Position numbers and translations under genes: made by a program. From Chrysoperla carnea (taxonomy: Eukaryota > Arthropoda > Insecta > Neuroptera > Chrysopidae): a stretch of DNA of 64,000 bases. Numbering within the stretch: position 1 is the stretch's first letter; each line of letters opens with the position of its first letter. This document shows, piece by piece, positions 1,350-47,400 of this stretch. Below the pieces are notes generated by a model. It had not been told where the DNA came from. It did no database searches and saw nothing but the letters and a program-made list of their open reading frames with translations. The DNA lies in assembly GCF_905475395.1 (NCBI RefSeq), contig NC_058339.1, positions 54,383,172 through 54,447,171 on the forward strand, in the 5' to 3' direction.

Positions 1350-3740
1350 GTAAGTTTAAAAATCAAAATTTTGTTTTTTTTACTAATTTAAAAAAAAAAA
1401 AAATGAAAAGTAAAATTAAAACTTCGTTAACTCTTTTTGAAAATTGATTTTATTAAAAAGTCGCTAACCTATTTTAACTATGGGATGGATACATAATCGA
1501 TTTCCACCTGAACTTCCCATGGTAAGGACTTCCTGTAAAAATTACCTTTGATATTTTTGTTTTGACGTCTTGATAACCTCAATTGATAATAATAATTTAT
1601 GAGTCAGATAATTAGCTAATAATTTAATAACAATAAAAAAGATTGAAAAAAGTAAGTTTGTACTAATTATAATTACACGATTGAATTATTAATAGCGATT
1701 TTGACATTAAACAATCTGGTTCGAATATTTAACGTCACATTAATCGAAATTATTGTTTATTAAATTGTATTGATGATTTAATAGTGAAGTTTGAACCCCG
1801 GAACTATAGTGGTTAGATAAAATTAATTTTATAATTGATAATTAATTGGCACATGAATGACGAAGTTAACATTAACAACATAGATAAAATATAGTAATAG
1901 TAGACACCTGACACAATGAGTATTATAGCGATTCAGTAAATAAAATGACATTTCTGGTCATGCGTACCAAAGGATTACAGTGCAGGAAAATGACGTTATC
2001 AATATTTTTAGACTTTTTGGCTTCTTCTGTGCGTCATAAATTTCTGCGAAGAAAGGAGGGATACAAACTTGTTTTCAACAAGTTTTCAACGTTGAAGTTC
2101 CTTCGATATTAATAATTCCCATAGGAAAAGGCTAACTAATCTAGTAAATAGTCCTATTCTCAGTTTGAGGCAGGAGAGATTAAGCGTTGCTAATGTTTTA
2201 TGCTGCTTTATTTTATTAACTCAACGTAAACGTTTTGGCACATTTCCACCCTCTTTTTGTCTCATGATAGATGTGCCTCTTTTGGCAACGGGGAAAAATT
2301 ATTGATTTATAAACTAGGTTTCAATAATTGATTTTTTTTTCTTCAAAAAACCCACAATGGAATGTTATAATACTTGAAAGGAGGGGTATGGGTAGTTGTG
2401 AAAATGTTACGATGCGTTTTGCAAAGATACAGGAGTCTCTAAAATTTGATCCAAATTTGTTACTTGGTTGAAGGTTTCTTCATAACTTAGAAAGGCAAAT
2501 TAGAAGAGGACTTGTAAATATAAAAATTATTGCATTTAATCACGGCAGCTGAGTTGTTGCGTCACGCGACATTTTTGTATAGTAGATATACATGCAATAT
2601 TAAACAATGCATACTAATTGCCGTTATAAGGTCATCCCCCAAATGAAAATATTGAAAACGAGGAATTAAAATATATGACTGGTGGATATCCGTATAAATT
2701 TTTTAAAACTAGACATGTGCTTGAAACTTGAAAAATAAGTTCTCGAGAAAGAAAAATTCACTTCAAGCAAAATAACTGATAGAAGAAACTTTAAATTAGA
2801 AAGTTATTAGTTCGCGGGATAGTGCCCTTTTTGTTAAATGATTAATACATTATAAATTCGTGAGTTCGGTTAACCTTTTGGCGAGTCTACCAAACTTTAT
2901 TTCTACGATTTTTTTTCGAAAGTGCTGCGTTTTCAAATTAGCATGATAACGTCTTATTCAAGCTATCGGTCTGAAAAAAAACAGCAGGAATTTGCTGGAC
3001 ACTATGACCAATTGATAACAGAATTTAAAATCGTCATTTAAGCATAGCAAGGAATAATTACAAATTACAAGAAAATAGCAATATTCCATACTCGATATCA
3101 CTTTATAACGACTTTTACGGTTCATATTTACAGAAAACGATATACTAATTACAAAACTAATTATATCAACTAGTTTTGCTATTATCAACATGCAAATCAG
3201 AAACTAATAACTTTGATAACAAAAGTAGTAATAATATAATAAAAATATTATACACCTACTATTGTTAACACTAATTACAACATACTTCGAATCCTTGAAT
3301 ATGTTAATTACTATTAATTACAATATACATCTTAAATTACATCATATTAAAATTATTTTTGAATTATATTATATACATGCGATTATCGATTCTATTAGAG
3401 ATGTCTAGCTGGGTATTTTGGGGTCATCTTTGCGTCATGCGCGACGTAATACAAACATAAATTTTATATCAAAAATAATTTGTAGCAAGCAATCTGAGTA
3501 TCAAATAAAAATTCTGTACTTTATGACTGCATTATTATAAATAAATCAGTGAAAAAATGATCACATAGTGACTCAAATTTGAGGTGTACCTTCAGCACCA
3601 TTAAAGAGAGAACACAACATATAGTGTGTACTTTATTTTATCAACACCTACATATTACATGTAGACCATGTGACAAAAGAGACAATAACACAATATTGTA
3701 ATCATTTTTTCCTTTTACATATTATAAAAACATAATAAAA
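1350..3740. other. Non-coding stretch before the galectin
   Basis: No supported gene. If the 1203-1349 exon is real, this is the start of its intron. The galectin promoter and leader should lie near the right end, but no TATA or initiator signal is distinctive enough to call. Confidence 0.4.
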
Positions 3741-6700
3741 ATGTCGAATAACGATAGCTATAATTCTTTTGTTGATTTAACTAAAATTGAAACATACGCT
3801 GAATTACAGGAGATTGTACATAGTAAACCATTGGATCAACCATTAAAAACGTCCGATGTCATTGTTATACATGGAACTGTCCATAATGATTGTGAAAGGT
3901 TTGTACAAAAATTGTTATTATATTATTTGCTTTGGTAGCTAATAACTATGCATTTTTTTTCGAATAAAGGTCAATGTACCGGTAAAAATATCGAATAGAA
4001 TAACATTGTTGACCGTTTGGAACGCCTCTATCGGAAATAAAATTAACTAAAATACGTGATTAGTAAAACTTATTTTATACCATGCATATATGTAATATTC
4101 AAGGTATACTAAGTTTAGTCCTAAGTTTATAACGCTTAAAAATATTAAGGCTATGAACAAAATTTAGGTATAGGTGTTTTTAAAATCACCTAATTAGTCC
4201 ATTTTCGGTTGTCTGTCCGTCTGTCTGCCACGATAACTCAAAAACGACAAGATATCAAGCTGAAATTTTTACAGCGTACTCCGGACGTAAAAAGTGAGGT
4301 CAAGTTCGTAAATGAGCAACATAGGTCAATTGGGTCTCGACTTATGGGTCCTTAGGACCCATCTTGTAAACCGTTAGAGATAGAACAAAAGTTTAAATGT
4401 AAAAAATCTTTCTTTTCAAAAAATAAACAACTTTTGTTTGAAACATTTTTTCGTAAACATCACTGTTTACCCGTGAGGGCGCAAATTAGGCGTAAATTGT
4501 ATGGTATGTATAATATGGGGATATCAGTTACGTATGTGTGACATGTATAGGTATATGTGTAATATGATTGAGTAATCAACACTGTCTATGCATGGTATTT
4601 CAACAATTAACCCAGTCAATAGTTTGTTTTCACTTGTTTTTTTTTTTTTTTTAATTTTCTTCTAATAATAAGTTTTTATGTAACCGCTAACATCTATTTA
4701 CCAATATCTTGGCAAAAATGAAAAGATTATTGCTCTATGACAACTTTAATAACTTTTTGATAATGATGTATGACAACTTTAAGATAAAAAATGACAACTC
4801 TAAATCGACAATAAACGGTAGAGCAAGAACATATTAGGACCGGTTGTATTTTGTTTTCAATCAATTGAAAGTGGTTAAAAATTAAAACATTTTCAAATAT
4901 TTTCAATCACTTAGACAGTCTGATGTGCAGTACAAAAGTACGTAACGACGCGACCGACCCGTACGTAACGACGCGACCGACCCATGACTGGACCCCGCCC
5001 AGATAGGCGACGTAAATTTAGCCATGGGCGCTTACTACTCGGCATGGGAGGTTTCACGTCCTTATGTATATATGTTTTTGCGGCAGAGCTTTCGTAAAAG
5101 TATTACGTTGATAAGAACACTGTCGATCATGTTTAGTTATAAATAAGAAGCTTTCAAAAGTCAATTTATAATACAATCATCGACTTGTATTAAAATATAG
5201 ACTGATCACAAAATATAAAAAATGTTGCCCTACCTAGCATAGATATCGACATTTCATGAAAAAGCAAAAAAAAATCCCGAGTAGACGAAATGGTACATCG
5301 TTTTACATATGAGAGATTAATTATAATGCACATCTGGATATGTATGCTCTTTTTAGTATATATATAAGCTGGTACCGACATGTAAAATAGACCAAAATAA
5401 GATAAACTTTTCAAAAAATCGATGCGATAATGGTTTTTGTTTGATTAAAACTGTTCTTTACATTGGTGTGGAAATATCTGTGCCCTTGATAGAAAAATAG
5501 CAGTTTTGTATGACAAATGGTTGTTTTACAGTTTTACGTACTAGAGTCAGCTCAGTCCACAACAAAGAAAATACACCAACAAATAGAACGAGGAGAGAAA
5601 ACCGGATCATCATTGACATAATTTCAATTGAATTTTAACAAAATTCAAAACGTGGCCACACCTTATAACGTTATTTGTAAACCCTTAAGAAAGCATGAAT
5701 AGTAGTGATACAAAGACGCTACCATAGTGGAAAGTATATCGGCATTAATAAAAAAATTAAGAAACGCATGCTAGACATCTACATAATGGCGTTCACAACA
5801 TCTTAATCAACGGTTTCTAACAACCTAATCTATAATCTATTGTTTCTGATTAAATCAATTCCTAGCTTGTTCCCAAATTTTTATTAAATAACCGTATAAT
5901 TAAAAAAGATGCATTCTATATTGTGCAATTTTTCGTTACAGGTTTACAATCAACTTACTAAGCGCCCAATCATCGGATCCTACCCATAATGTTATACTGC
6001 ACATAAATCCACGATTTGAACAAAGGTATATAGTACGAAATAGCCGTATAGGTGGAAAATGGGGGGCAGAAGATACAACTGGAAAATTTCCTTTTATTTT
6101 AAAACGTGGTTCAGAATTTAAATTACATATATTTGTAACTGATTCTGAATTTTTAATATCTATTGATGGCGAACACTATTGTGCATATCCGTTCCGGATT
6201 CCGGCTAAAAAAGTGACACACATTGAAGTAACTGGAGCTATTCAAATTCATGATTTACGAATTGATTCCCTAAATATTTATCCAACGTCGCCTGGTGATA
6301 CTTCAACTGTACCAATATTACCAATAAATCACTCACTTGAAGAAACTATTAAACTTGTAAATATGCGATACATTTTATTTTGTTTCTGGTAAAGATTATA
6401 TTTTGGTCAATTTTTCAGCCTTTTTGCTGGCGACTGAGTGGACCATTCGTAACTGGACAACAAATTGCTATTGAAGGTGTTGTCAAACTTTTACCGGTTG
6501 CATTTTTTGTTAATTTACAAAATGGTGAACATGTATGGCCTCATCCAGAAATTCCATTGCATGTTAACACTAGATTTGGTTAGTATCTATTATTATATTG
6601 TAACGCTATTCTATTTCAACTTTAAATCAAAAACACCTTTGCAGTTTTAAGTCCTCAGCAAATTTTAATTTAACTGTCCAAAGGCAATATTGTCTGTATG

Positions 6701-7950
6701 AAACATTGAAATACACATTGTTTATATTTACATTATATATGCGTTTATAAGCACTTGAAAGCAATATGGCGAATTATGATATCCTGGCTGATAATTTCTC
6801 AGAAAGTTCTTGTTTATCGAATAAAGCTCATTCTTATCCCCCTCTTCTCCAATTGAGAATGTCTTCACATAAATTTGGACTAACAATTTCAATATCCACT
6901 TCAAAATAGACTCAACGGTCGAATGTACAGACTAATTCAGTTGAAAATTATTTCTGGGTCATAATCTGCATACCGTACATCAATTTGTTTCTGACATATT
7001 CACAGGATCGATTTTTATACCATAGCAATATTTTATCAAATTTTGCTTGTCTTTTTCCCAACAAAATGTAAATTTTGACGAAGACTCTTTGCGCTCAAGT
7101 TTTTGAACCATACTTATCAATCTTTCACGATGAATCCACTGAAATTTGGGTCGACGAAGTTAAACTTTGGCAAAAACGCATTACCGGACAGAACACCCAA
7201 AATTCACTAAAACCACTCGATATTTACAATGAAGAAACGTTTCCAAATACCTACCAAATGTTTCGCGTTTTGGCAGTTTTATTTGTGACAACGGCGTCGA
7301 ATGAACGCTCCTTTTCAACTTTTCGTCATCTCAAAATATACCTTAGATTGACAATGTCTGAGGGTCGGCTAAACGGTTTAACTTGGATCAATATACATAT
7401 ACGCGATGTAGAGGTCGATGGGCACAGAGTTTTGGAATAGTACTTTTTGTACCTCACAGAATTATTGAAAAATAGTGACTGAATATCACATTTTGAAATT
7501 TCTTTCCATCATTTTTTGTTTTTATTGACTTTATATTATGGCTTAACTAACGATAACAACAACTAATTGCAAACGAGGCCATTAATAACAATATTTACTT
7601 TTTTAATATTACATAATATTTTTACAGTACAAAAAGGAGAAATGTATCTTGTTCGAAATTCGTGGAAAAATGGACAATGGGGTTCAGAAGAACGTGCCGT
7701 TACAAATAAATTTCAACCTGGACGACCGTTTATTCTTTCTATAAATTGTGAAGATGATTTATATTCAATTTGGGTAAATAAATCATTAATCGCTACATAC
7801 AACCATCAAATGAATCGTGATCTAGCAACACATTTGTACATCGAAGGTGATATAAATGTTAAAAGAATTATTCATTCAGATAAAATTTTAGATAAATATA
7901 CTCATGGTAGTATAAATGATAGTGAAACTATTCATGATAATAATAATTGA
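3741..7950 (+). CDS. Tandem-repeat galectin (two carbohydrate-recognition domains)
   Basis: Coding exons are 3741-3898, 5942-6356, 6419-6578 and 7628-7950, giving 351 residues. All junctions are GT-AG and the phases are consistent. Two galectin domains follow a 38-residue leader. Domain 1 spans about residues 39-166 and has HINPRF (73-78), VRN (84-86) and WGAED (93-97). Domain 2 spans about 192-333 and has HVNTRF (239-244), VRN (253-255) and WGSEER (262-267). In the family these His, Asn, Arg, Trp and Glu residues line the beta-galactoside pocket. Domain 2 keeps the full set. Domain 1 has Thr98 where the last pocket Arg is usual, so its sugar preference may differ. There is no signal peptide, as usual for galectins, which leave the cell by a non-classical route. 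The start codon has an A-rich context (aaaaatg). Intron 1 is 2.0 kb and carries a dispersed repeat. Intron 3 carries a hAT transposase remnant. Confidence 0.9.
4150..5130 (+). repeat. Dispersed repeat in galectin intron 1, second copy near 47.2 kb
   Basis: The core (about 4200-4450) contains a gtctgtccgtctgtctg run followed by the block caacataggtcaattgggtc. The same block occurs reversed at about 47185-47395. The stretch to about 5130 has a composition unlike the flanks, including a locally GC-rich part (4935-5060), and is probably one mobile element about 1 kb long. The outer limits are estimates because only the core is duplicated within the window. No coding capacity is seen, and the class is unresolved. 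Confidence 0.55.
4938..4983 (+). repeat. Two exact 23-bp tandem copies, GC-rich and CpG-rich
   Basis: Positions 4938-4960 and 4961-4983 are identical. The unit begins gtacgtaacgacgcgacc and holds several CpG dinucleotides in an otherwise AT-rich intron. It lies inside the dispersed repeat of this intron. Confidence 0.85.
7075..7440 (+). pseudogene. hAT transposase C-terminal (dimerisation) fragment
   Basis: A 121-codon open frame without a convincing ATG. It contains the motif FPNTYQMFRVLAVL, then TTASNERSFSTFR, then MSEGRLNGLTWINIH, which is the order seen in the hAT-family dimerisation region of transposases and related zinc-finger MYM-type or 52-kDa-repressor-like proteins. The N-terminal zinc finger and catalytic parts are absent here. 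It sits in galectin intron 3 (6579-7627), on the same strand as the gene. Terminal repeats and target duplication were not identified, so the element limits are unknown. It is a remnant, though this part is still open. Confidence 0.75.
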
Positions 7951-15200: not shown

Positions 15201-18200
15201 TACAGTAATATCCCATGCTTTCTCCCACGATAATCCTTCAATATCAATAAGAATTCGCATTAATTCTGGTATGGCAAGTGATGGATGTGTGTCATTCAAT
15301 TGTATGGCAACTTTATCAGGGAATAAATCTAAATTAGTACGAACTGGTTCCCGGGTACCAAATTTCGATGATTTAAAACGACGAATAATATCTTGTAATG
15401 TAGCAGCGCACATGAAGTATTCTTGTTTCAAACGTAATTCTTTACCCTCGAAGAAATTATCATTGGGGTAAAGAACTCGTGAAATGTTCTCGGCCAAATT
15501 ACGATCCAAGACAGCTTGAATATAATCACCATCGTTAACTGTTAAACAAGAAAAAGTGATCAATTAAAAATTCCATGCTAAAATATTTTAATACTTACAG
15601 AATTTAAGATTGAACCCAATTGGAGATTTTGCGGACCATAAACGAAGGGTATTAACAACATTGTTGTTATAACCAGGAATTGGATTATCGTATGGCATAG
15701 CAAAAACAATTTGAGTGTTAACCCATTTCTTTCCAGTGGGTGTAGTTTCAACATGCCCATAGAAATTAACGGGTAACATATATTCAGGACGAGCTTTTTC
15801 CCATGGGTTACCATAACGTAACCAATCGTCGGGTTCTTCAATTTGTTCCCCATTTCTAATTTTTTGTGCAAAAATACCGTATTCATAACGAATACCGTAT
15901 CCATAGGCGGCAAGACCTAATGTTGCCATTGAATCTAAGAAACATGCAGCTAAACGTCCTAAACCACCATTTCCAAGACCAGCATCTTCTTCAAGTTCTT
16001 CTAATTCTTCAATATCCAAACCCATTTGATACAAAGCTTCATCGCAAGCACCTTGGATTCCAATATTGATCATAGTGTTTTGTAATGATCGTCCCATGTA
16101 ATATTCGAGTGATAGGTAGTAGACTCTCTGTAATTAAAAAAAATACATTAATTTCTACAGTTTCTGGTGCAAAGCAAGGAGTGTATCAACCTTAAAGAGT
16201 TTTCTCGGATTTCATTCTCCAACCTCAATAATAAATTTTCAAAATTCCCTGATGATTTCCGACTCGCTAGTATCCTGATTTTTTTTCTAAACACAGAGAT
16301 AGAACTCCCTATTTTTTTATAAATCCAACTCAATCATATCCCCTGATAAATTTTCCAACTTTTCTGATTTGTTGCTACTCTGTTCTCTAATAAAACTTCA
16401 AATATCTCATTTTTCTTGATAAGAATTTTGGGAGAACTTTGGGAAGTTTTCATTAAGAACATATTCCAGGTAGGAGAATGTACTTCCGTACGAGAACTTT
16501 CGTTAGATAGAAGGGAGCTGTATTTTATACTGTCGAATCGAAGCTAGAGTAAGTATAACTGCCTCTACTGGATTTCTACAGTATTTGTAAAGTAGAAGTC
16601 ATTGCGAACGAGGTATTTATACGAATAAAATTGATCAATATAAGGATTTAGTTACATTACATTTTCTAACTTATTTATCCTCTCAGATGGTACAAAACTT
16701 ATACTCTAAAAAAATTACTTCTTAGCTAATGAAAATCTAAAATAGATAGATACTAGATAATGCGATCATTTTAAGAAAATGTCTCTCATGGCAGAGTGTA
16801 CTTCTGGAGAATAGCAGATAAGCTGAGAAACTAAAATAGCCAACTGATTTTGTTTTTCCAGTGGATTTTGCTACGTATTTCAACTAAACACACCTAACAA
16901 AGATTCCTGTCTATTGCGATAAAAATGAAATTCTAGAAAAAAATGGATATAAACATAATCTATTTTCAATATTGTTTTATTTACAGCAACAGTTCGCAAT
17001 ATTTATTAATTTAAATACCTTTTAAAATGGTTAATAATACATTCTATGTACATACAATACCATATGTTTAAGTAACGTATGTTTATATTATATGAGTACA
17101 CATAATATCTAAATTGTTTGGACTTTGCCAGAATAACTACGTCGTATGAAAACAAAAATATCTATTTTTAAATTTTTTAAACATATCGTTCTAGTGACAA
17201 CGCTATGCTATTCTTCGAAATTGTATTATGTAGATATATCTTTTTTTATTTATTTTATAAACAGGATATGATTTTTAACAAAAATGTTATTACTACTGAA
17301 GTAATTCATTGTAGTAAGTTAAAAAAATGTGAAAAATTTGTACCCAAAATTAAAGTTCGAAAATAAAACGAAACTGGATTGTTAATAAATAAACAATCAA
17401 AATAACGACATAGTAGGGATTAACAAATTTTGTCATTTTAACCGATTGTTGTTATAAACGATATGTACATTTTTATATTAAAGTGAAAGTATGTGCATAT
17501 GTACAAATGTCGGTCGTTATTGTTGGCGAATTCCAATGAAAATTGATCGATATATGAGTTAATAAGGTCCAAAATAAAGTTCATAAGACTCAAAATTTAT
17601 ATGGTTCTAAATAGTATTATGATGCTGTTTTGTTTAACTAAAAAAGTATTGTACATGTAAAATAAGTGTGTTTTTACATTCGTTGGTCGTTATAGCCGAT
17701 ATATTTGCTTACAATTCCAATGAATATTAATCGCTATGTCCGATATGTCTTTATAATCGATACATTCATGAATGGGTTTATATGGGAATTCAGTCGGGAC
17801 TTTTCATTTTCGTCGTCATACCTGGTTCGTTGTTATAACCGTTTTGACTGAATAGGACAAATCAGTTATCTGGAAGCTTCGTCTTACTGAGATATACCCC
17901 CACATTTCAGGACTCACATTGGGGCTTACCTTTTATTACAGGGCTCACATTAAATGTCCATAATAAGCTCCAATGTGATACCTGGAATAAAAGGGCTGAC
18001 AAAAGTAAGAGATTTTATGTCTAAAATGCGAGTGGCGTCCGGATCAGAGTCTCGACCTATTTTCAGGCTAGGGTCTGGTCTATAATTCCCAATCATTTGA
18101 TATTTAATAAGGTTGAACTAATATAATATTACAAACAAATCACCTACAGATATTACTTAGGTAAAATGCAGACCACAAAAATTTCAAGGGCATATTAATT

Positions 18201-24200: not shown

Positions 24201-27200
24201 AAATGGAGAATAACGGTAGTCGGGTGCCTAGGGTTCTGACTCCCGAAACTGTGTAGTCTTTTCCTGACTCCCATATAAACATAAATTCTCCAGAGTTCAG
24301 TAAATAAAGTTTGGCTTCTGAAGTTTTTCGAACCCTTGCGTTTAAAAATGGGACACTATTACAGAAATCTTTTTCGGTCTATTTTTTCCTAAATCCATAG
24401 ATTTATATACCCGTAATAAAAGTAATGCAAAACCTGAAATAAAAATGTAACTGAAGTTTCAACTAGTTATTAACTGAAAATTATAAAAAAAAAAAATGTA
24501 GGCCGCCGTCCACCGATTTTATCAAAAAAAGATTCTTTATAATGTACTGAATAAAAAAGTATTAGGCCATTTTCCAATTCAAAGGGCTAAACACCCCCCC
24601 AGGGCACTTTGAAAATTTTTTACATATACATAACTGAATAATGGTCGCCGCCGTCCACCGATTTTTTCAAAAAATGATTCTTTATAATGTACTGAATAAA
24701 AAAGTATTAGGTCATTTTTGAATTCAAAGGGCTAAACACCCTCTCAGGGCACTTTGAAAATTTTTTACATATACATAACTGACCCTTATTCACTGCCGCC
24801 GTCCACCGATTTTTTCAAAAAATGATTCTTTATAATGTACTGAATAAAAAAGTATTAGGTCATTTTTGAACTCAAAGGGCTAAACACCCTCTCAAGGCAC
24901 TTTGAAAATTTTTTACATATACATAACTGACCCTTATTCACTGCCGCCGTCCACCGATTTTTTCAAAAAATGATTCTTTATAATGTACTGAATAAAAAAG
25001 TATTAGGTCATTTTTGAATTCAAAGGGCTAAACACCCTCTCAGGGCACTTTGAAAATTTTTTACATATACATAACTGACCCTTATTCACTGCCGCCGTCC
25101 ACCGATTTTTTCAAAAAATGATTCTTTATAATGTACTGAATAAAAAAGTATTAGGTCATTTTTGAACTCAAAGGGCTAAACACCCTCTCAAGGCACTTTG
25201 AAAATTTTTTACATATACATAACTGACCCTTATTCACTGCCGCCGTCCACCGATTTTTTCAAAAAATGATTCTTTATAATGTACTGAATAAAAAAGTATT
25301 AGGTCATTTTTGAATTCAAAGGGCTAAACACCCTCTCAGGGAACTTTGAAAATTTTTTGCATATACATAACTGACCCTTATTCACTGCCGCCGTCCACCG
25401 ATTTTTTCAAAAAATGATTCTTTATAATGTACTGAATAAAAAAGTATTAGGTCATTTTTGAATTCAAAGGGCTAAACACCCTCTCAGGGCACTTTGAAAA
25501 TTTTTTACATATACATAACTGACCCTTATTCACTGCCGCCGTCCACCGATTTTTTCAAAAAATGATTCTTTATAATGTACTGAATAAAAAAGTATTAGGT
25601 CATTTTTGAATTCAAAGGGCTAAACACCCTCTCAGGGAACTTTGAAAATTTTTTACATATACATAACTGACCCTTATTCACTGCCGCCGTCCACCGATTT
25701 TTTCAAAAAATGATTCTTTATAATGTACTGAATAAAAAAGTATTAGCCCATTTTCCAATTCAAAGGGCTAAACACCCCCCCAGGGCACTTTGAAAATTTT
25801 TTACATATACATAACTGAATAATGGTCGCCGCCGTCCACCGATTTTTTCAAAAAATGATTCTTTATAATGTACTGAATAAAAAAGTATTAGGTCATTTTT
25901 GAATTCAAAGGGCTAAACACCCTCTCAGGGCACTTTGAAAATTTTTTACATATACATAACTGACCCTTATTCACTGCCGCCGTCCACCGATTTTTTCAAA
26001 AAATGACTCTTTATAATGTACTGAATAAAAAAGTATTAGGTCATTTTTGAATTCGAAGGGCTAAACACCCTCTCAGGGCACTTTGAAAATTTCTTACATA
26101 TACATAACTGACCCTTATTCACTGCCGCCGTCCACCGATTTTTTCAAAAAATGATTCTTTATAATGTACTGAATAAAAAAGTATTAGGTCATTTTCCAAT
26201 TCAAAGGGCTAAACACCCCCCCAGGACACTTTGAAAATTTTTTACATATACATAACTGAATAATGGTCTCCGCCGTCCACCGATTTTATCAAAAAGTGAT
26301 TCTTTTTAATGTACTGAATAAAAAAGTATTTGGTCATTTTCCAATTCAAGGGGAGAAACCCCCCCCCTCCCCAGGGTACTTTGAAAATTTTTTACATATA
26401 CATTGTTGAACCTTATTTTTATCCGCTGTCCATAAATAATGCCAAAAAAGGATTCCTTATAACGTCCTGAAGAATTAACTAGCGAGGCATTTTTCGATTT
26501 AGAGGGCCCGTTACCCCCGTGGTTCGCTTTGAAATTTTATTTTTTTTAACTTAAAAATTTTTAATTAAAATTTCGAATATGATGTAATACTATTTTAATA
26601 TTACTAATAATTAGTAATAACTACTAATAAATAGTTATAACGCTTAAAATATTTTAGTATTTCGATTTTAGTGACCAAGAGATATATGTTTTTTCATTTT
26701 TAATAAACATTCTGTATAGTGGGTTCGTACATGCTGCCTGTATATAATACACATATTATTTTATTTAAGATACTGTTTCAATTTTAAAGTTTAGTCGCTG
26801 GATGCGTTACCGTTTGTAAATTATTTTCATACTTGTTTCGCATGATGTAAATTTCATTTGATTAACGTGAATATTAAATTAATAATAATTTTTCCAGTAA
26901 ATTATTAAGAACAGTAAGTAAAACTCATACTACGAACAAATACAAAATTTTGATTTCTCTTTTTTGAATTCGTAATACTAAATTTCTTACCTTGTAATAA
27001 AATTTTCCTGATTTTCATTCATTCATTCCTTGTAATAAAATTTTCACTGATTTTCACTCATTTCACTTTAATCACTTTCAACATTTAAGAAACAATGCTT
27101 TTCACAGATTTTACAAATTCACTTAAAAAAACACTCTGAATTAATTCAAAAACTACATATTCTATTTATTAAAACTGAATTAATTCAAAAACTACATATT

Positions 27201-30200
27201 CCACTAATTAAAACTCTGAATTAATTCAAAAACTTAAAAAATTTTCACCCAAAACACACTGAATTAATAACATACTAACTTAACTCATCATAATAATTTT
27301 AACAACTGCAGAATATATCGAAAATCCATTTAAAAATGAATTAAAAAAAGAAACGTTTATCAAAGAGAGTAAAAGATATTCAAAAAAACAATAATTCTAT
27401 CCTTTTGTCCATCCACAGTACAGTCTCTAAAAGATATTATGAAGAACATGTAAAAACTTGATTAAAATTTACAATAACATATCTTAATATCGTTGAGTGT
27501 TGATTCAATTAATAATATGGACAAAAGGATAGAATTATTGTTTTTTTGAATATCTTTTACTCTCTTTGATAAACGTTTCTTTTTTTAATTCATTTTTATA
27601 TGGATTTTCGATATATTCTGCAGTTGTTAAAATTATTATGATGAGTTAAGTTAGTATGTTATTAATTCAGTGTGTTTTGGGTGAAAATTTTTTAAGTTTT
27701 TGAATTAATTCAGAGTTTTAATTAGTGGAATATGTAGTTTTTGAATTAATTCAGTTTTAATAAGTAGAAAATGTAGTTTTTGAATTAATTCAGAGTGTTT
27801 TTTTTAAGTGAATTTGTAAAATCTGTGAAAAGCATTATTTCTCTTAAATGTTGAAAGTGATTAAAGTGAAATGAGTGAAAATCAGTGAAAATTTTATTAC
27901 AAGGAATGAATGAATGAAAATCAGGAAAATTTTATTACAAGGTAAGAAATTTAGTATTACGAATTCAAAAAAGAGAAATCAAAATTTTGCATTTGTTCGT
28001 AGTATGAGTTTTACTTACTGTTCTTAATAATTTACTGGAAAAATTATTATTAATTTAATATTCACGTTAATCAAATGAAAGTTACATCATGCGAAACAAG
28101 TATGAAAATAATTTACAAACGGTAACGCATCCAGCGACTAAACTTTAAAATTGAAACAGTATCTTAAATAAAATAATATGTGTATTATATACAGGCAGCA
28201 TGTACGAACCCACTATACAGAATGTTTATTAAAAATGAAAAAACATATATCTCTTGGTCACTAAAATCGAAATACTAAAATATTTTAAGCGTTATAACTA
28301 TTTATTAGTAGTTATTACTAATTATTAGTAATATTAAAATAGTATTACATCATATTCGAAATTTTAATTAAAAATTTTTAAGTTAAAAAAAATAAAATTT
28401 CAAAGCGAACCACGGGGGTAACGGGCCCTCTAAATCGAAAAATGCCTCGCTAGTTAATTCTTCAGGACGTTATAAGGAATCCTTTTTTGGCATTATTTAT
28501 GGACAGCGGATAAAAATAAGGTTCAACAATGTATATGTAAAAAATTTTCAAAGTACCCTGGGGAGGGGGGGGGTTTCTCCCCTTGAATTGGAAAATGACC
28601 AAATACTTTTTTATTCAGTACATTAAAAAGAATCACTTTTTGATAAAATCGGTGGACGGCGGAGACCATTATTCAGTTATGTATATGTAAAAAATTTTCA
28701 AAGTGTCCTGGGGGGGTGTTTAGCCCTTTGAATTGGAAAATGACCTAATACTTTTTTATTCAGTACATTATAAAGAATCATTTTTTGAAAAAATCGGTGG
28801 ACGGCGGCAGTGAATAAGGGTCAGTTATGTATATGTAAAAAATTTTCAAAGTGCCTTGAGAGGGTGTTTAGCCCTTTGAATTCAAAAATGACCTGATACT
28901 TTTTTATTCAGTACATTATAAAGAATCATTTTTTGAAAAAATCGGTGGACGGCGGCAGTGAATAAGGGTCAGTTATGTATATGTAAAAAATTTTCAAAGT
29001 TCCCTGAGAGGGTGTTTAGCCCTTTGAATTCAAAAATGACCTAATACTTTTTTATTCAGTACATTATAAAGAATCATTTTTTGAAAAAATCGGTGGACGG
29101 CGGCAGTGAATAAGGGTCAGTTATGTATATGTAAAAAATTTTCAAAGTGCCCTGAGAGGGTGTTTAGCCCTTTGAATTCAAAAATGACCTAATACTTTTT
29201 TATTCAGTACATTATAAAGAATCATTTTTTGAAAAAATCGGTGGACGGCGGCAGTGAATAAGGGTCAGTTATGTATATGTAAAAAAATTTCAAAGTGCCC
29301 TGAGAGGGTGTTTAGCCCTTTGAATTCAAAAATGACCTGATACTTTTTTATTCAGTACATTATAAAGAATCATTTTTTGAAAAAATCGGTGGACGGCGGC
29401 AGTGAATAAGGGTCAGTTATGTATATGTAAAAAATTTTCAAAGTGCCTTGAGAGGGTGTTTAGCCCTTTGAGTTCAAAAATGACCTAATACTTTTTTATT
29501 CAGTACATTATAAAGAATCATTTTTTGAAAAAATCGGTGGACGGCGGCAGTGAATAAGGGTCAGTTATGTATATGTAAAAAATTTTCAAAGTGCCCTGAG
29601 AGGGTGTTTAGCCCTTTGAATTGAAAAATGACCTGATACTTTTTTATTCAGTACATTATAAAGAATCATTTTTTGAAAAAATCGGTGGACGGCGGCAGTG
29701 AATAAGGGTCAGTTATGTATATGTAAAAAATTTTCAAAGTGCCTTGAGAGGGTGTTTAGCCCTTTGAGTTCAAAAATGACCTAATACTTTTTTATTCAGT
29801 ACATTATAAAGAATCATTTTTTGAAAAAATCGGTGGACGGCGGCAGTGAATAAGGGTCAGTTATGTATATGTAAAAAATTTTCAAAGTGCCCTGAGAGGG
29901 TGTTTAGCCCTTTGAATTCAAAAATGACCTAATACTTTTTTATTCAGTACATTATAAAGAATCATTTTTTGAAAAAATCGGTGGACGGCGGCGACCATTA
30001 TTCAGTTATGTATATGTAAAAAATTTTCAAAGTGCCCTGGGGGGGTGTTTAGCCCTTTGAATTCAAAAATGGCCTAATACATTTTTATTCAGTACATTAT
30101 AAAGAATCATTTTTTGATAAAATCGGTGGACGGCGGCCTACATTTTTTTTTTATAATTTTCAGTTAATAACTAGTTGAAACTTCAGTTACATAAATAAAA

Positions 30201-33200: not shown

Positions 33201-34323
33201 TTAGTTATGACTAAAAAGAATTTAGATTTTCGATAACTCTACAATTTTTATATATTAGGTATATTTTTATGAAAATTGAGAACGATTTTCCTTTTTAAAG
33301 TCGGTTAAAAATAGCCAAGTACCAACCGATTATTTAGTTTACGATTTATTTTGTAAGCAATGCAGCATATTTTTGATTTCTTAATACTATTTTTAAGCCC
33401 TAAAGCATCTCTTTATGTATAGTTTAGGAAAATAATGTAAACAATGTACTGCAATTTTTTTTATAACAATGATTATACATTTTGATTAGTAGTGCTAACT
33501 CAGTGGTTTTATCACTAAAACTGGTGATTTTACTCTTCCTTTATAGTGAGCAAAAAAAATTAATATTTTAATATTTTTTATGCTAATTATTGAAAGCTTA
33601 TAACGTTCTCTCGAAAACTATTCTGGAAAAACGCCCTCACATTTGGCAAAACGCAGCCACTGTTTGTGATAAATTTGAAATTTTAAAAAATTCTTCAAGA
33701 TTAACAATCACTTCCTCCCCTTTCCATTTGGCTTAAGTTTCGATTTTTGAAATTTTGATGAATATCAAAAAGGTAAACTGACGTTTATTTATTTCATAGT
33801 TATTGAAACAGTTTCTTACAAAACGGCTTTATTCTCCTGACTATAAGTTTTTTAAATGAATTTATTATAAAATATAAATTACATAATTGTGTAAACAATT
33901 TTTGATAGACAATAAGTTAGAACGTTAGTTAAAAGTTCAGTTTAATAGACAATAAGTAAGACTTCTGTGTTGGCAAAGTTTATATCAATTACAATTATTT
34001 TTGGCTCAAATTCAAATAGAAAGATTACCATTTAAAAAAATGTTTATAAAGATTTGTAAAAAATATTAAAGAATAATTACCTTTGGATCTTTCTCGTAAT
34101 AATACTGTTGTGTACGGATCCATCTCGATACCAGATGATCTTTTACAGTATGTGCCAATGCAAAATAATAATCTCTGGGGGTGGCTACATTACGATCTTT
34201 GACCAGCGTATAATGTAAATGTCTATTAAATGTTTTTTTCACTTCAGTTACATTTTCAACTCCTGCAATACCACGAACACTAATCTGTTTACGTTTCTCT
34301 ATATCGGATTGTGGAGTTGCCAT
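12269..34323 (-). CDS. GlyP: Glycogen phosphorylase, complete (843 residues)
   Basis: Cytosolic alpha-1,4-glucan phosphorylase. It releases glucose-1-phosphate from glycogen and needs pyridoxal phosphate. Coding exons in gene order are 34323-34081, 16127-15599, 15538-14908, 14358-13383 and 12421-12269, with lengths 243, 529, 631, 976 and 153, totalling 844 codons. All junctions are GT-AG. The length matches the animal enzyme (about 842). The regulatory serine lies in RKQISVRG as Ser15 (Ser14 without the first Met). Also visible are [21 protein letters not shown] across the first junction, the [17 protein letters not shown] glycine loop, RRFKSSKFG (AMP/phosphate side), [36 protein letters not shown], and [16 protein letters not shown] with the pyridoxal-binding Lys681. 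No key residue is missing. Intron 1 is 17953 bp and hosts most of the mobile DNA in the window. The other introns are 60, 549 and 961 bp. Phosphorylase kinase and AMP control are expected from the conserved sites. Confidence 0.97.
12790..13145 (+). mobile_element. Non-LTR retrotransposon (LINE) 3' ORF remnant
   Basis: Plus-strand reading gives [11 protein letters not shown] followed by basic residues, and later [15 protein letters not shown]. This is the pattern at the C-terminus of many insect LINE polymerases (WFGH-x-RM near the end of the RT protein, then W-x-x-IV-x-EA). Frameshifts or stops lie upstream. It sits in the last glycogen phosphorylase intron (12422-13382), opposite to the gene. 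It is a dead fragment; the start limit is approximate. Confidence 0.6.
14477..14644. mobile_element. Imperfect palindrome, MITE-like, in glycogen phosphorylase intron 3
   Basis: The left arm begins tcatggaggtattatagaaa and runs to about 14537 (aaaacggtatc). The right arm is its imperfect reverse complement, from about 14591 (gataccgtttt) to 14644 (aataccttcatga). The arms are about 55-60 bp with several mismatches and small indels around a loop of about 55 bp. No coding capacity is seen and no duplication was resolved at the ends. A small non-autonomous DNA element is likely. Confidence 0.55.
20066..20300. mobile_element. Inverted-repeat element, arms about 70 bp
   Basis: The left arm (about 20072-20139) holds ataacttttgataagttttc and gtgtatatttcttttgaaat. 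The right arm (about 20226-20292) holds their reverse complements (atttcaaaagaaatatacac and gaaaacttatcaaatgttat). The loop is about 87 bp with no coding content. The left flank has gggacgccctgtata, a motif often seen at the edges of insect DNA elements (established pattern, not checked here). Probably a MITE; the exact ends are unresolved. Confidence 0.6.
21486..21740 (+). mobile_element. LINE reverse-transcriptase remnant (thumb region)
   Basis: Reading gives [17 protein letters not shown] then [20 protein letters not shown]. After one frameshift it continues toward [13 protein letters not shown] and finally [10 protein letters not shown]. This order (YLG-x-x-I-x-x-(D/N)GRC, then R-x-x-x-x-K-x-AF, then EMW) is a hallmark of the segment after the RT catalytic core in many insect LINEs. 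It carries at least one frameshift and several stops. It may belong to the same family as the 12.8-13.1 kb remnant, whose motifs normally follow these ones. Confidence 0.6.
23942..24150 (-). mobile_element. 5'-truncated LINE 3' end, family shared with the 58.6-kb copy
   Basis: The minus strand encodes [19 protein letters not shown], matching FFDDLSDLESVYVKALL in the copy at 58641-58948. Both resemble the tail of insect LINE polymerases after the RNase H domain. Both then run into a related 3' segment with the block (ac)ggaccttatggtctaaa and end in aacctaacct. This copy keeps the frame open through that segment, probably by chance. It lies 0.3 kb left of the foldback element. Confidence 0.65.
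24437..24444 (+). repeat. Target-site duplication, left copy (aaataaaa)
   Basis: Eight bases directly left of the left terminus, identical to 30193-30200 directly right of the right terminus. The next base outward differs (g versus c), fixing the length at 8. The low complexity of the sequence tempers confidence slightly. Confidence 0.8.
24502..26420 (+). repeat. Left-arm tandem array, 13 units plus one decayed unit
   Basis: Units start with the anchor gccgccgtc (the last as tccgccgtc) at 24502, 24647, 24795, 24943, 25091, 25239, 25387, 25535, 25683, 25828, 25976, 26124 and 26269. Spacings are 145 or 148 bp. The 145 type carries the linker ataatggtc, and the 148 type carries cccttattcact. 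Each unit has the block aaagggctaaacaccc. The 145-type spacings are 1st, 9th and 12th. Middle units are almost identical, while end units differ, as expected from unequal exchange homogenising the interior. A strongly diverged 14th copy follows at about 26421. Confidence 0.95.
26421..27412 (+). repeat. Inner inverted arm, left (about 1 kb)
   Basis: The reverse complement matches 27517-28510 with only a few differences, for example in the short repeated block tgaattaattcaaaaact, which itself recurs several times at about 27140-27240. It ends at ccttttgtccat (27412). No coding content. Confidence 0.9.
27413..27516. other. Unique 104-bp centre (hairpin loop) of the foldback element
   Basis: The only part of the element without a partner in the other arm. 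It has stops in all frames and no recognisable motif. It would be the loop if the element formed a hairpin in RNA or single-stranded DNA. Confidence 0.85.
28505..30137 (-). repeat. Right-arm tandem array, 11 units plus one decayed unit
   Basis: The reverse anchor gacggcggc occurs at 28800, 28948, 29096, 29244, 29392, 29540, 29688, 29836, 29984 and 30129, with a variant (gacggcgga) at 28655. From the outer end inward the spacings are 145, eight of 148, then 145. The decayed copy lies at about 28505. The two-unit difference accounts for the 292-bp length difference between the arms. Confidence 0.95.
30803..31018. mobile_element. Palindromic MITE-like element (216 bp)
   Basis: The ends are atagagaacgc and its reverse complement gcgttctctat. 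The arms are about 80-85 bp and hold gctagcct(g/a)taagtggatg and agagagaag blocks in inverted order, with a small indel near the outer end (extra bases gagggatct on the left). The loop is about 50 bp. No open frame and no clear target duplication. It lies 0.6 kb right of the foldback element. Confidence 0.7.
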
Positions 34324-44494: not shown

Positions 44495-47400
44495 GATTTA
44501 AGAAAAATTATAAATGTATTTAAATTTACTGATAAATTTCTAAAAAAAATTGAGTAATTTCTTTATAAATGTTATTTTTGTTAAAAATAATCTTCAAAAA
44601 GTGGAATTATTAGGTATAAAGCTAACGAATATTTTGTCTGTTGTACTTAGGCAGTCTAAGAGCACTAAGCAAAGACGATATCGAAAGATAGGCGTTCATT
44701 TTAAGTTATGGTCCCGGTAAATTTTTCATCACTCCGCATGCAAAAAATTGATGATTATCTACTTATTTTATTAATAAGAAGGTAATTGACATTACAAATA
44801 AGTCCAAATTTTACGATAGCTTTAAAAATTGAATATTTGAGGAAAAAGACTTAATTTATCTAATAAAAAAAAGGATCAATTTTTGAAAATTTCTAAGTCT
44901 TCTCATATTTTTGTGAAATGATATTTTTTTTACTTTCGTTTAGATTTCTTTTTTTAGTACTTATTGTCTCGTTAAAATACAATAAGTTGGGAATAAAAAT
45001 CAGACATAGAACTGAAAATTTAACAAAAATAATTAATATTCGTAAAAAATTACCTAATTTAGAAATTCTAATGAATAAATATTTTTGTATTATTGTTACA
45101 TATTTTTTTTATTGAAGTTATTTCTATTAATTACCAGTAATTTATTTTTTTTTAATTTGAGAAAAACGTACATGCTATTTTGATATTTCAAAGGAAAAAA
45201 TATTATTTAATCTAAGCATGCTACGATTTTTCTGTCAATAATTTTCCAGTTGCCTTTTTCACTGTCGTGTCGAGAAAAATTAGCTCTCTCTCAGTTTTAT
45301 ACGTTACCGAGGCTGTTATTAATTACCTAAATTTCGCCTTTCAAAGGAATATTATTTGATTTTGACATTCATTATTGACCCTTTATTTTCGACAATCAAT
45401 CATTAATGCGATACAATAAACCGAGTAGAAAATACAGAAAAGTTTCAGAAATGAAAATTTTCAGAATGATAAAACCGAATATAAAAAGAAGCACTAGACA
45501 TATATAATAACCTAACATTGAAAATTTAGTGAAAATTCATGTTATGATCGTGGTTGTTAAGAAAATGTCTAATTTTATATTCTCTACATAAAATCATCAT
45601 AAAAATTATTGATTTAATTTAAAAAAACATGCAAATATGCAATAAAAATGTACATTACATATAAAAAATAATAAAATAATTGCGTTTAGAAATAAATATA
45701 TTGCGAATAAAATGTAATTCGTTGGAAATTTTACAAGGAAATTTAAATATTTCGTTTATATAAATGAGATTGTAAAATCTATTCGATTAGTTTGATGTGT
45801 CATAATAATTTGAAATCGAAAAAATTATAACACAAACAAATATCATTCTATTTTATGGTAATAAAAGTTGATATGTCAATTTTTTCGAAATCTCGAAAAG
45901 ACTGTAGAAATATCACCACTCGTATATAGGAATTTTAGTCGATATTTCAGAAAATATCCGCTCAATCGTAAAAAGGGCAGGATTTTTTGTATATTTGAAT
46001 TATATTATTCTAGAAAACGTTTTTAAAAAAAAAAAACAAAAAACGGGTTAGTTGTTAGTAGTTAAACTATTGGGAGAGTCGTTTTACTGATAACGTAAGT
46101 CTGTAAGTATAAAGTTTTAGTTTTGGAGTGATTCAAAAGATTTTACGAAAAATATTCATCTAAATGTCATAGGAACTAGATTTTTTTTGGAGCCCTAAAT
46201 AAATCTACATGTAAATTTGGTCCATTTTGGATTTGAATGGCAAAAGGACCCAATTTTTGTATTTTCTATGTCAAAATTACTCCATTAAGGTTCTTGAACC
46301 CGAAGATCTCCTCGAGAAAGTTTAAAGGGGGAAAATATAGGTTGGGAGGTTTACGTTTGTTAGGCCGATGGCTGAAGCCATGCTGAAAGCCGTTTTGCAG
46401 CTTCAAGGAGAAAGGAGTAGTTTAAATTTTATGTTAAAGTTTCTGAGTTTTTATTGAAGAGACGAGAAGAGACCTTATAAATTTATTTCTAAGAAATATA
46501 GATTTAACAATAAATTTTATTTAAAAAAAACTTTATGTGTGTGTGTCTGTCTGTCTGTCATTGGCATCGTAGCGCTTAAACGGATGAACCGATTAAAATT
46601 TTTTTGTTTCGTTTGAAAGGTAACTGAATGGGGAGTGTTCTTAGATAATCATTTCAAGTGCGAGTTTAGGATTCCGTACGCGAAAAATTATTCGGAGATT
46701 TTTTTAATTTTCTAAATTTCACTTGTTAAATATAATCCCATAAATGATTTTTCATTATAATCAAAGTATACATCAATATTTAAATAAAACAATATTTTTG
46801 TATTTACTTTTGTTTATTAAAAAAAAAATAAAAACATTTTATTAATTAAACGTAAGTATACATTCATAAAAATGGTAAAAATAATTTGTACCGTTATTAA
46901 ATTCATTTATAAACTTATATTAAAATAATGAATGTTTATTTAGATATATTATTTATATGTAAATGTAATAAATACATAATATAACAACATACAATAACTA
47001 CCGTATACAAGAATAATATGTAGATATTTTTTATATAAGTACGAACATTGACCGCAAATTAACTTCACTCAACCAACGTAGAAGTTGTTTATTATTATAG
47101 TTAGAGAAGATTGCGATTTATAGTTGTAATTAAATTTTTACAAAAATAATGAATAATTTGCAACTATGGAGGTTCAAACAAAAGTAGTTTATTATTTTAT
47201 AAGGAACATTTTTTACATTTGAACTTTTTTCTATCTCTGGCGGTTTACAAGATGGGTCCTACGGACCCAAGACCCAATTGGCCTATGTTGCTCATTTACG
47301 AACTCCACCTCACTTTTTGCGTCCTGAACACGCTATAAAAATTCCAGCTTGATATCTCTTTTTGTTTTTGAGTTATCATGTTGACAGACACAGATAACTT

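Follow-up and report, generated by a model that had tools for sequence, protein, structure and literature searches.

The stretch of DNA that we analyzed, referred to as the window, is 64,000 nucleotides from the neuropteran Chrysoperla carnea (NC_058339.1, positions 54,383,172 to 54,447,171). It contains a palindromic element of 5,748 bp that is a non-autonomous foldback-type DNA transposon with no gene of its own. We think it very probable that this element belongs to a foldback-type transposon family that derives from a Rehavkus-like parent and is moved in trans. The family is probably new, set apart from Rehavkus by comparison with published descriptions. Elements of this kind are already known, and the added interest lies in the link to a parent. 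The coding partners of foldback elements are often missing; in this case, a single assembly contains both the palindromes without genes and the coding copies that have their ends, units, and 8-bp duplication. The transition from a transposon with genes to a foldback can therefore be traced from one copy to the next.

Structure of the element

The element lies at 24445-30192 of the window, with AAATAAAA as an 8-bp duplication on both sides. Its parts are as follows:

24437..24444, no strand: left target-site duplication, AAATAAAA
24445..24501, plus strand: left terminus, which starts ATGTAACTGAAGTTTCAACTAGTTATTAACTG
24502..26417, plus strand: left tandem array, 13 units of 145/148 bp
26418..27412, plus strand: left inner arm, 995 bp, the first ~124 bp of which are a degenerate unit
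27413..27516, no strand: central loop, 104 bp
27517..28514, minus strand: right inner arm, 99.4% identical to the left inner arm
28515..30137, minus strand: right tandem array, 11 units
30138..30192, minus strand: right terminus, inverted
30193..30200, no strand: right target-site duplication, AAATAAAA

The original prediction, which was made from the sequence alone, described exact ends with an 8-bp flanking duplication, inverted arms of 2.7-3.0 kb, internal arrays of 145/148-bp tandem units, a three-part arm (terminus, array, and 1-kb inner arm), and no transposase. We recovered each of these. The arms measure 2,968 bp and 2,676 bp, and both of them have, from the outside in, a terminus of ~57 bp (the ATGTAACTGAAG terminus), an array of units, and an inner arm of ~1 kb, with the loop at the center. 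The consensus unit is 148 bp, and the measured spacings are 145 or 148 bp. There is no open frame of at least 120 amino acids inside the element. Inverted arms of this length that contain tandem repeats are the structure of a foldback, and together with the 8-bp duplications they support the class that had been proposed.

In the inverted-repeat comparison, the long pairs show 97-99% complementarity between the two arms. When one arm is aligned to the other, there is a single length difference, of 293 bp or two units, and few base changes. The middle 1,121 nt are predicted to form one long hairpin (-745.5 kcal/mol, a value without a shuffle control). An Rfam scan of the window at the gathering threshold gave no match.

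A dispersed family with near-invariant ends

We searched the host assembly (559 Mb in 337 contigs) for the 32-bp terminus and found 65 matches with at most 3 mismatches, as compared to 0 for the reversed pattern, so the matches are beyond chance. The original prediction would have been refuted if the termini had no other copy in the genome, which is not the case. By count from the match list (in which partners with more than 3 mismatches would escape), 44 of the 65 ends pair to give 22 two-ended copies, 4 lie within another element that we call X (see below), and for 17 the list shows no partner nearby. As predicted, the further copies have 8-bp duplications: they are found in all 22 two-ended copies, and are perfect in 20 and have one mismatch in the other two (locus L028 and the 27.6-kb copy described below). 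If left and right flanks are mispaired (n = 462), then none are perfect duplications and 6 have at most one mismatch. The target duplications of the family are A+T-rich. One two-ended copy is 15.7 kb long (C3:6805809-6821540, with GATATATT on both sides); of this copy, the ends alone were read.

When all 44 ends from the 22 two-ended copies are compared to their consensus, the mean agreement over the first 44 bp is 99%. Genome matches that span our entire 1,001-bp terminal query are 77-99% identical. Ends that are nearly invariant fit the expectation for a site that a transposase would bind.

For one copy, L024, there are also empty sites. This copy inserted into a dispersed repeat, and other copies of the repeat lack the element. 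As a query, we joined the flanks of L024 with a single copy of the duplication, which places the junction at 150/151, and we considered a match to span the junction if it extended from query position 114 or below to 289 or above. With 40 of 341 candidates scored, 46 of the 66 listed matches span the junction without the element; two of the listed matches are the flanks of L024 itself. Among the copies, this check of the genome covered L024 alone.

These results bear on another possibility that the original prediction raised, that there is no mobile element and the palindrome is a local inverted duplication or an artefact of assembly. Palindromes with tandem arrays are prone to misassembly, and a long near-perfect one is a typical hazard. 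However, there are 22 dispersed two-ended copies whose 8-bp duplications differ, one copy has empty sites, and the number and sequence of the units vary among copies. At the level of the family, this explanation is already refuted, and we give it next to no probability. The element in the window is not an assembly artefact.

Some copies contain insertions of their own. A 4.5-kb insert in L015 was considered as a source of transposase and was rejected: it is a retrotransposon of the non-long-terminal-repeat type (L015 1926-6430) with a 1,094-amino-acid open frame, including reverse transcriptase (RVT_1, E = 6.9e-35) and endonuclease domains, and it lies within the inner arm of the foldback copy. 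In L020, an insert of ~0.5 kb lies in the loop (3118-3731), and its edges carry an 8-bp repeat of loop sequence; we could give this insert no identity beyond that repeat.

Variation in arms and units

Within a copy, the inner arms are 98.4-100% identical (11 copies in which both arms could be measured), while between copies the median identity is 95.4% (range 92.6-99.9%, 289 pairs). The number of units can be quite unequal between the two arms (e.g., 7 vs. 1 in L013 and 12 vs. 22 in L009). Also, one subgroup of copies has a spacing of 308 bp, which is about a double unit.

Long copies carry broken transposase-like frames

Two members of the family are much longer and contain coding sequence. 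One is 25.5 kb (C5:65606686-65632213, with TAAATTTT on both sides; its ends are in L033 and L043), and the other is 27.6 kb (C6:9088670-9116269, with duplications AAAAGTTT and AAAAGTAT; its ends are in L034 and L029). Both have termini, units, and 8-bp duplications in common with the palindromes. Each of the coding copies has arrays of units at its ends, and there is an extra 156-bp array at L034 6022-6453.

The order in the long copies is transposase-like frames, then a protease-like frame, and then a Cys/His-rich stretch that resembles a PHD finger. This stretch is directly followed by the far array and the terminus in the 25.5-kb copy. The transposase-like frames are L029 1971-2564 and 1097-1990 and L042 384-1859 (492 amino acids), and the L042 frame is 92-95% identical to the L029 frames at the protein level. 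A third coding stretch, L048, lies ~7 kb to the left of the 25.5-kb copy and is 98.8% like L042; it is broken and enters gag-like sequence. For the other frames, Pfam gives sub-threshold matches only: Peptidase_C48 (E = 0.0023), Peptidase_C5 (E = 0.011), and PHD (PF00628, E = 0.028). The PHD-like pattern (C-x2-C...C-x2-C-x4-H-x2-C...C-x2-C) was read by eye over broken frames, with PF00628 below its cut-off. For the four frames that we searched against NCBIfam, nothing useful was found. Both long copies carry nested insertions, and frames in L034 and L041 look by eye like retroelements. We consider the long copies to be the likely source of the transposase for the palindromes.

The type of transposase

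A search of the genome with the L029 frame found remote relatives, at ~30% identity, that have uninterrupted frames. Among the 50 listed matches, 17 are in frames of 1,082-1,083 amino acids, 12 are in frames of 1,107-1,109 amino acids, and 4 are in frames of 1,200-1,203 amino acids. A profile of three DDE-like families (L046, L047, and a frame of element X) aligns with the transposase-like frame of the long copies at E = 2.5e-11. The alignment spans IILYFDATG, AIVTDWSWALMNSV, and SNAYVEAHNK, and so it covers the regions of the first D (DATG), the second D (TDxSxALMN), and the E (YVE). If single sequences are compared instead, the 492-amino-acid frame matches L046 at E = 1.7e-10 and 22% identity.

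L046 belongs to the first of these size classes (17 listed matches) and L047 to the last (4 listed matches). L046 399-3599 (minus strand) is an uninterrupted DDE-like frame of 1,067 amino acids that is cut at the end of the sequence read, and L047 35-3646 (plus strand) is an uninterrupted DDE-like frame of 1,203 amino acids. Near their C termini, both have a TCPFD/TCPVDS...GHY pattern that looks by eye like a cysteine protease.

The motifs, the size of the duplication, and the architecture, rather than a curated domain, suggest that the family belongs to the Mutator group. The 8-bp duplication is within the range described for this group, 8-11 bp (PMC6446971).

Could the foldbacks belong to the hAT or P superfamilies instead? 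This is highly unlikely, but an 8-bp duplication, as found in this family, is usual for both, and Galileo is a P-type foldback. Also, the 25.5-kb copy contains a frame that looks hAT-like by eye (L033 6955-8223). However, this frame has no Pfam match at E = 0.001, is in none of the other loci that we read, and lies within its own candidate ends (CAGG...) and 8-bp duplication (GTAAATTT), at L033 5562-8660. We rejected this hAT-like frame, as it looks nested in the 25.5-kb copy. As for the foldback transposase-like frames, the 492-amino-acid frame has no match in Pfam at E = 10 and the L029 frames have no hAT or P domain, though Pfam misses their own group as well; and these frames align with another DDE family.

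Another alternative, which we judge to be very unlikely, is that element X supplies the transposase that moves the palindromes, much as NOF is associated with FB in Drosophila. X is a DDE-like transposon of ~10 kb (L035 4027-10000, continuing in L040; also L036, L037, and L038). The four regions of X that we sampled are ~99.9% identical over ~6 kb, all four contain half of a foldback copy next to an open frame, and a frame of X aligns with the transposase-like frame of the family in the profile comparison. On the other hand, the ends of X are different. The copy in L035 and L040 is 10,035 bp and has ends ACGTCTAAAAAC... with inverted repeats of ~0.67 kb (99.3% identical over the BLAST match). 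By the symmetry of its ends, this copy, the one read to both ends, has a 9-bp duplication, GTGCAATTG. Of the foldback, X has the loop along with half an arm, two of the units, and a single terminus; as the other terminus is absent, the fragment looks nested or captured. In L035, an open frame begins just beyond the foldback terminus. We rejected X as the parent because its ends and the length of its duplication differ. It looks like X captured a foldback fragment and then multiplied it.

Evidence against the proposed explanation

Several observations weigh against our reading of how the family arose and moves. First, all three of the coding stretches that we read are broken by frame changes or insertions, and a working transposase was not found in them, yet the inner arms from certain different copies agree at 99.8-99.9%, which may reflect recent movement. 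So these would be former parents and not working ones. The original prediction suggested that an autonomous relative might share these termini. Two long copies do share them and have transposase-like frames, but those frames are broken. The long copies were read in part, with ~17 kb of the interior of the 25.5-kb copy and ~13 kb of the interior of the 27.6-kb copy lying outside. Second, no Pfam domain of the coding copies reaches its curated cut-off. A 138-amino-acid frame upstream matches EF-hand_13 at E = 0.0076, which is also sub-threshold yet stronger than the match to PHD, so the sub-threshold matches may be due to chance. Third, in single-sequence comparisons, the 492-amino-acid frame had no match to L047 and nothing above chance to X; with a pairwise match to L046 alone, the profile result leans on L046. 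Fourth, the Pfam MULE model has 14 matches in the genome and none of them are at loci of the foldback family, so we dropped it as a genome-wide probe. Fifth, the termini of the family begin with ATG, while most arthropod Mutator-like elements (MULEs) are described as having G or C in the first three terminal bases (PMC13359780). Sixth, the inner arm is only weakly similar to the long copies. Seventh, in two pairs of copies (L012/L014 and L024/L025), the arms resemble those of the partner copy more than they resemble their mates. The pattern in these two pairs suggests that recent copying of whole elements and homogenization between arms are both likely to be in play.

Proposed origin and movement

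We still favor a Rehavkus-like parent. The DDE-type transposase of the long copies, which is encoded together with an Ulp1-like protease and a PHD-like finger, would bind the ~50-bp termini in trans, and the palindromes would then move by a cut-and-paste mechanism that staggers the target cuts by 8 bp. They would have arisen from a coding parent that lost its genes and whose inverted arms grew. Later, unequal exchange or slippage may have changed the number of units, and copying between the two arms of a copy would keep them similar.

More tentatively, and with somewhat more doubt than confidence, we suggest that this is a separate, Mutator-group route to foldbacks, in which a Rehavkus-like parent (DDE, Ulp1-like, and PHD-like) gives rise to palindromes that outlive it. 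Intronic copies could form kilobase-long hairpins when they are transcribed with host genes, and such hairpins could be a source of small RNAs by which the parent is silenced. Elsewhere, foldbacks have been linked with inversions of chromosomes (Galileo and DAIBAM) and with the origin of satellite DNA (Tetris; PMC4079207).

Comparison to known elements

The comparisons in this section are with published descriptions. Rehavkus has a 9-bp duplication, a PHD finger, inverted repeats of 26-400 bp, and a minisatellite that precedes the 3' repeat (PMC6446971). Rehavkus-1_TC is 9.5 kb and has 164-bp units in its inverted termini, mostly five and eight in a row, and Rehavkus is known from arthropods and annelids (PMC6446971, PMC10218199). 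Like Rehavkus, our coding copies have tandem arrays in or next to their inverted termini, and they may have a PHD-like finger, for which the match is sub-threshold. Unlike Rehavkus, the duplication is 8 bp in all 22 of the two-ended copies, most of the two-ended copies are gene-free palindromes, and the coding copies have an Ulp1-like protease frame. Given a duplication of 8 bp and not 9 bp, we do not class the coding copies as Rehavkus despite the common plan, a likeness judged by description.

FB/NOF of Drosophila melanogaster has long arms with internal tandem repeats, but its duplications are 9 bp and its units are much shorter. Among foldbacks, Tetris of D. virilis appears to be the closest in plan, judging from its description: it has a three-domain arm that runs from a flanking domain through tandem units of ~220 bp to an inner domain, a non-coding middle, and duplications of 8-10 bp (PMC4079207). 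It differs in the length of the unit, and it is described as three structurally complete copies with no coding partner found (PMC4079207). Tm1 of root-knot nematodes also has foldback-like arms, and it has gene-free copies along with one member of the Mutator group that encodes a transposase; in contrast to the family here, its units are ~14 bp, its duplications are 9 bp, and its transposase is of the Phantom type (PMC3169594). Galileo has long, internally repetitive inverted repeats that resemble Foldback, but its transposase is of the P-element type (PMC3573991, PMC4168063, PMC3688188). A literature search on foldbacks in calyptrate flies turned up nothing relevant among the papers listed.

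Host gene and surroundings

The original prediction placed the element in a metabolic gene. The locus does encode glycogen phosphorylase, but the element is in an intron and not in coding sequence. The exons that flank it are:

34051..34323, minus strand: glycogen phosphorylase, first exon with coding sequence (placed by similarity, with approximate ends)
15588..16133, minus strand: next glycogen phosphorylase exon found (open frame; similarity at 15843-16130)

On the minus strand, similarity to phosphorylase is found at ~34051-34323 and next at 15843-16130. The element between them is therefore in a large intron, the first one as we read the gene from its similarity. A frame at 13.3-14.4 kb matches Pfam Phosphorylase (E = 1.8e-155). 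The element is probably removed with the intron by splicing.

Elsewhere in the window, 5904-7950 contains two frames with galectin domains, and between them is a fragment of a hAT dimerization domain (7072-7440). Also, an inverted pair of ~235 bp, whose members are 84% alike (4208-4442 and 47173-47398), is probably a small dispersed repeat.

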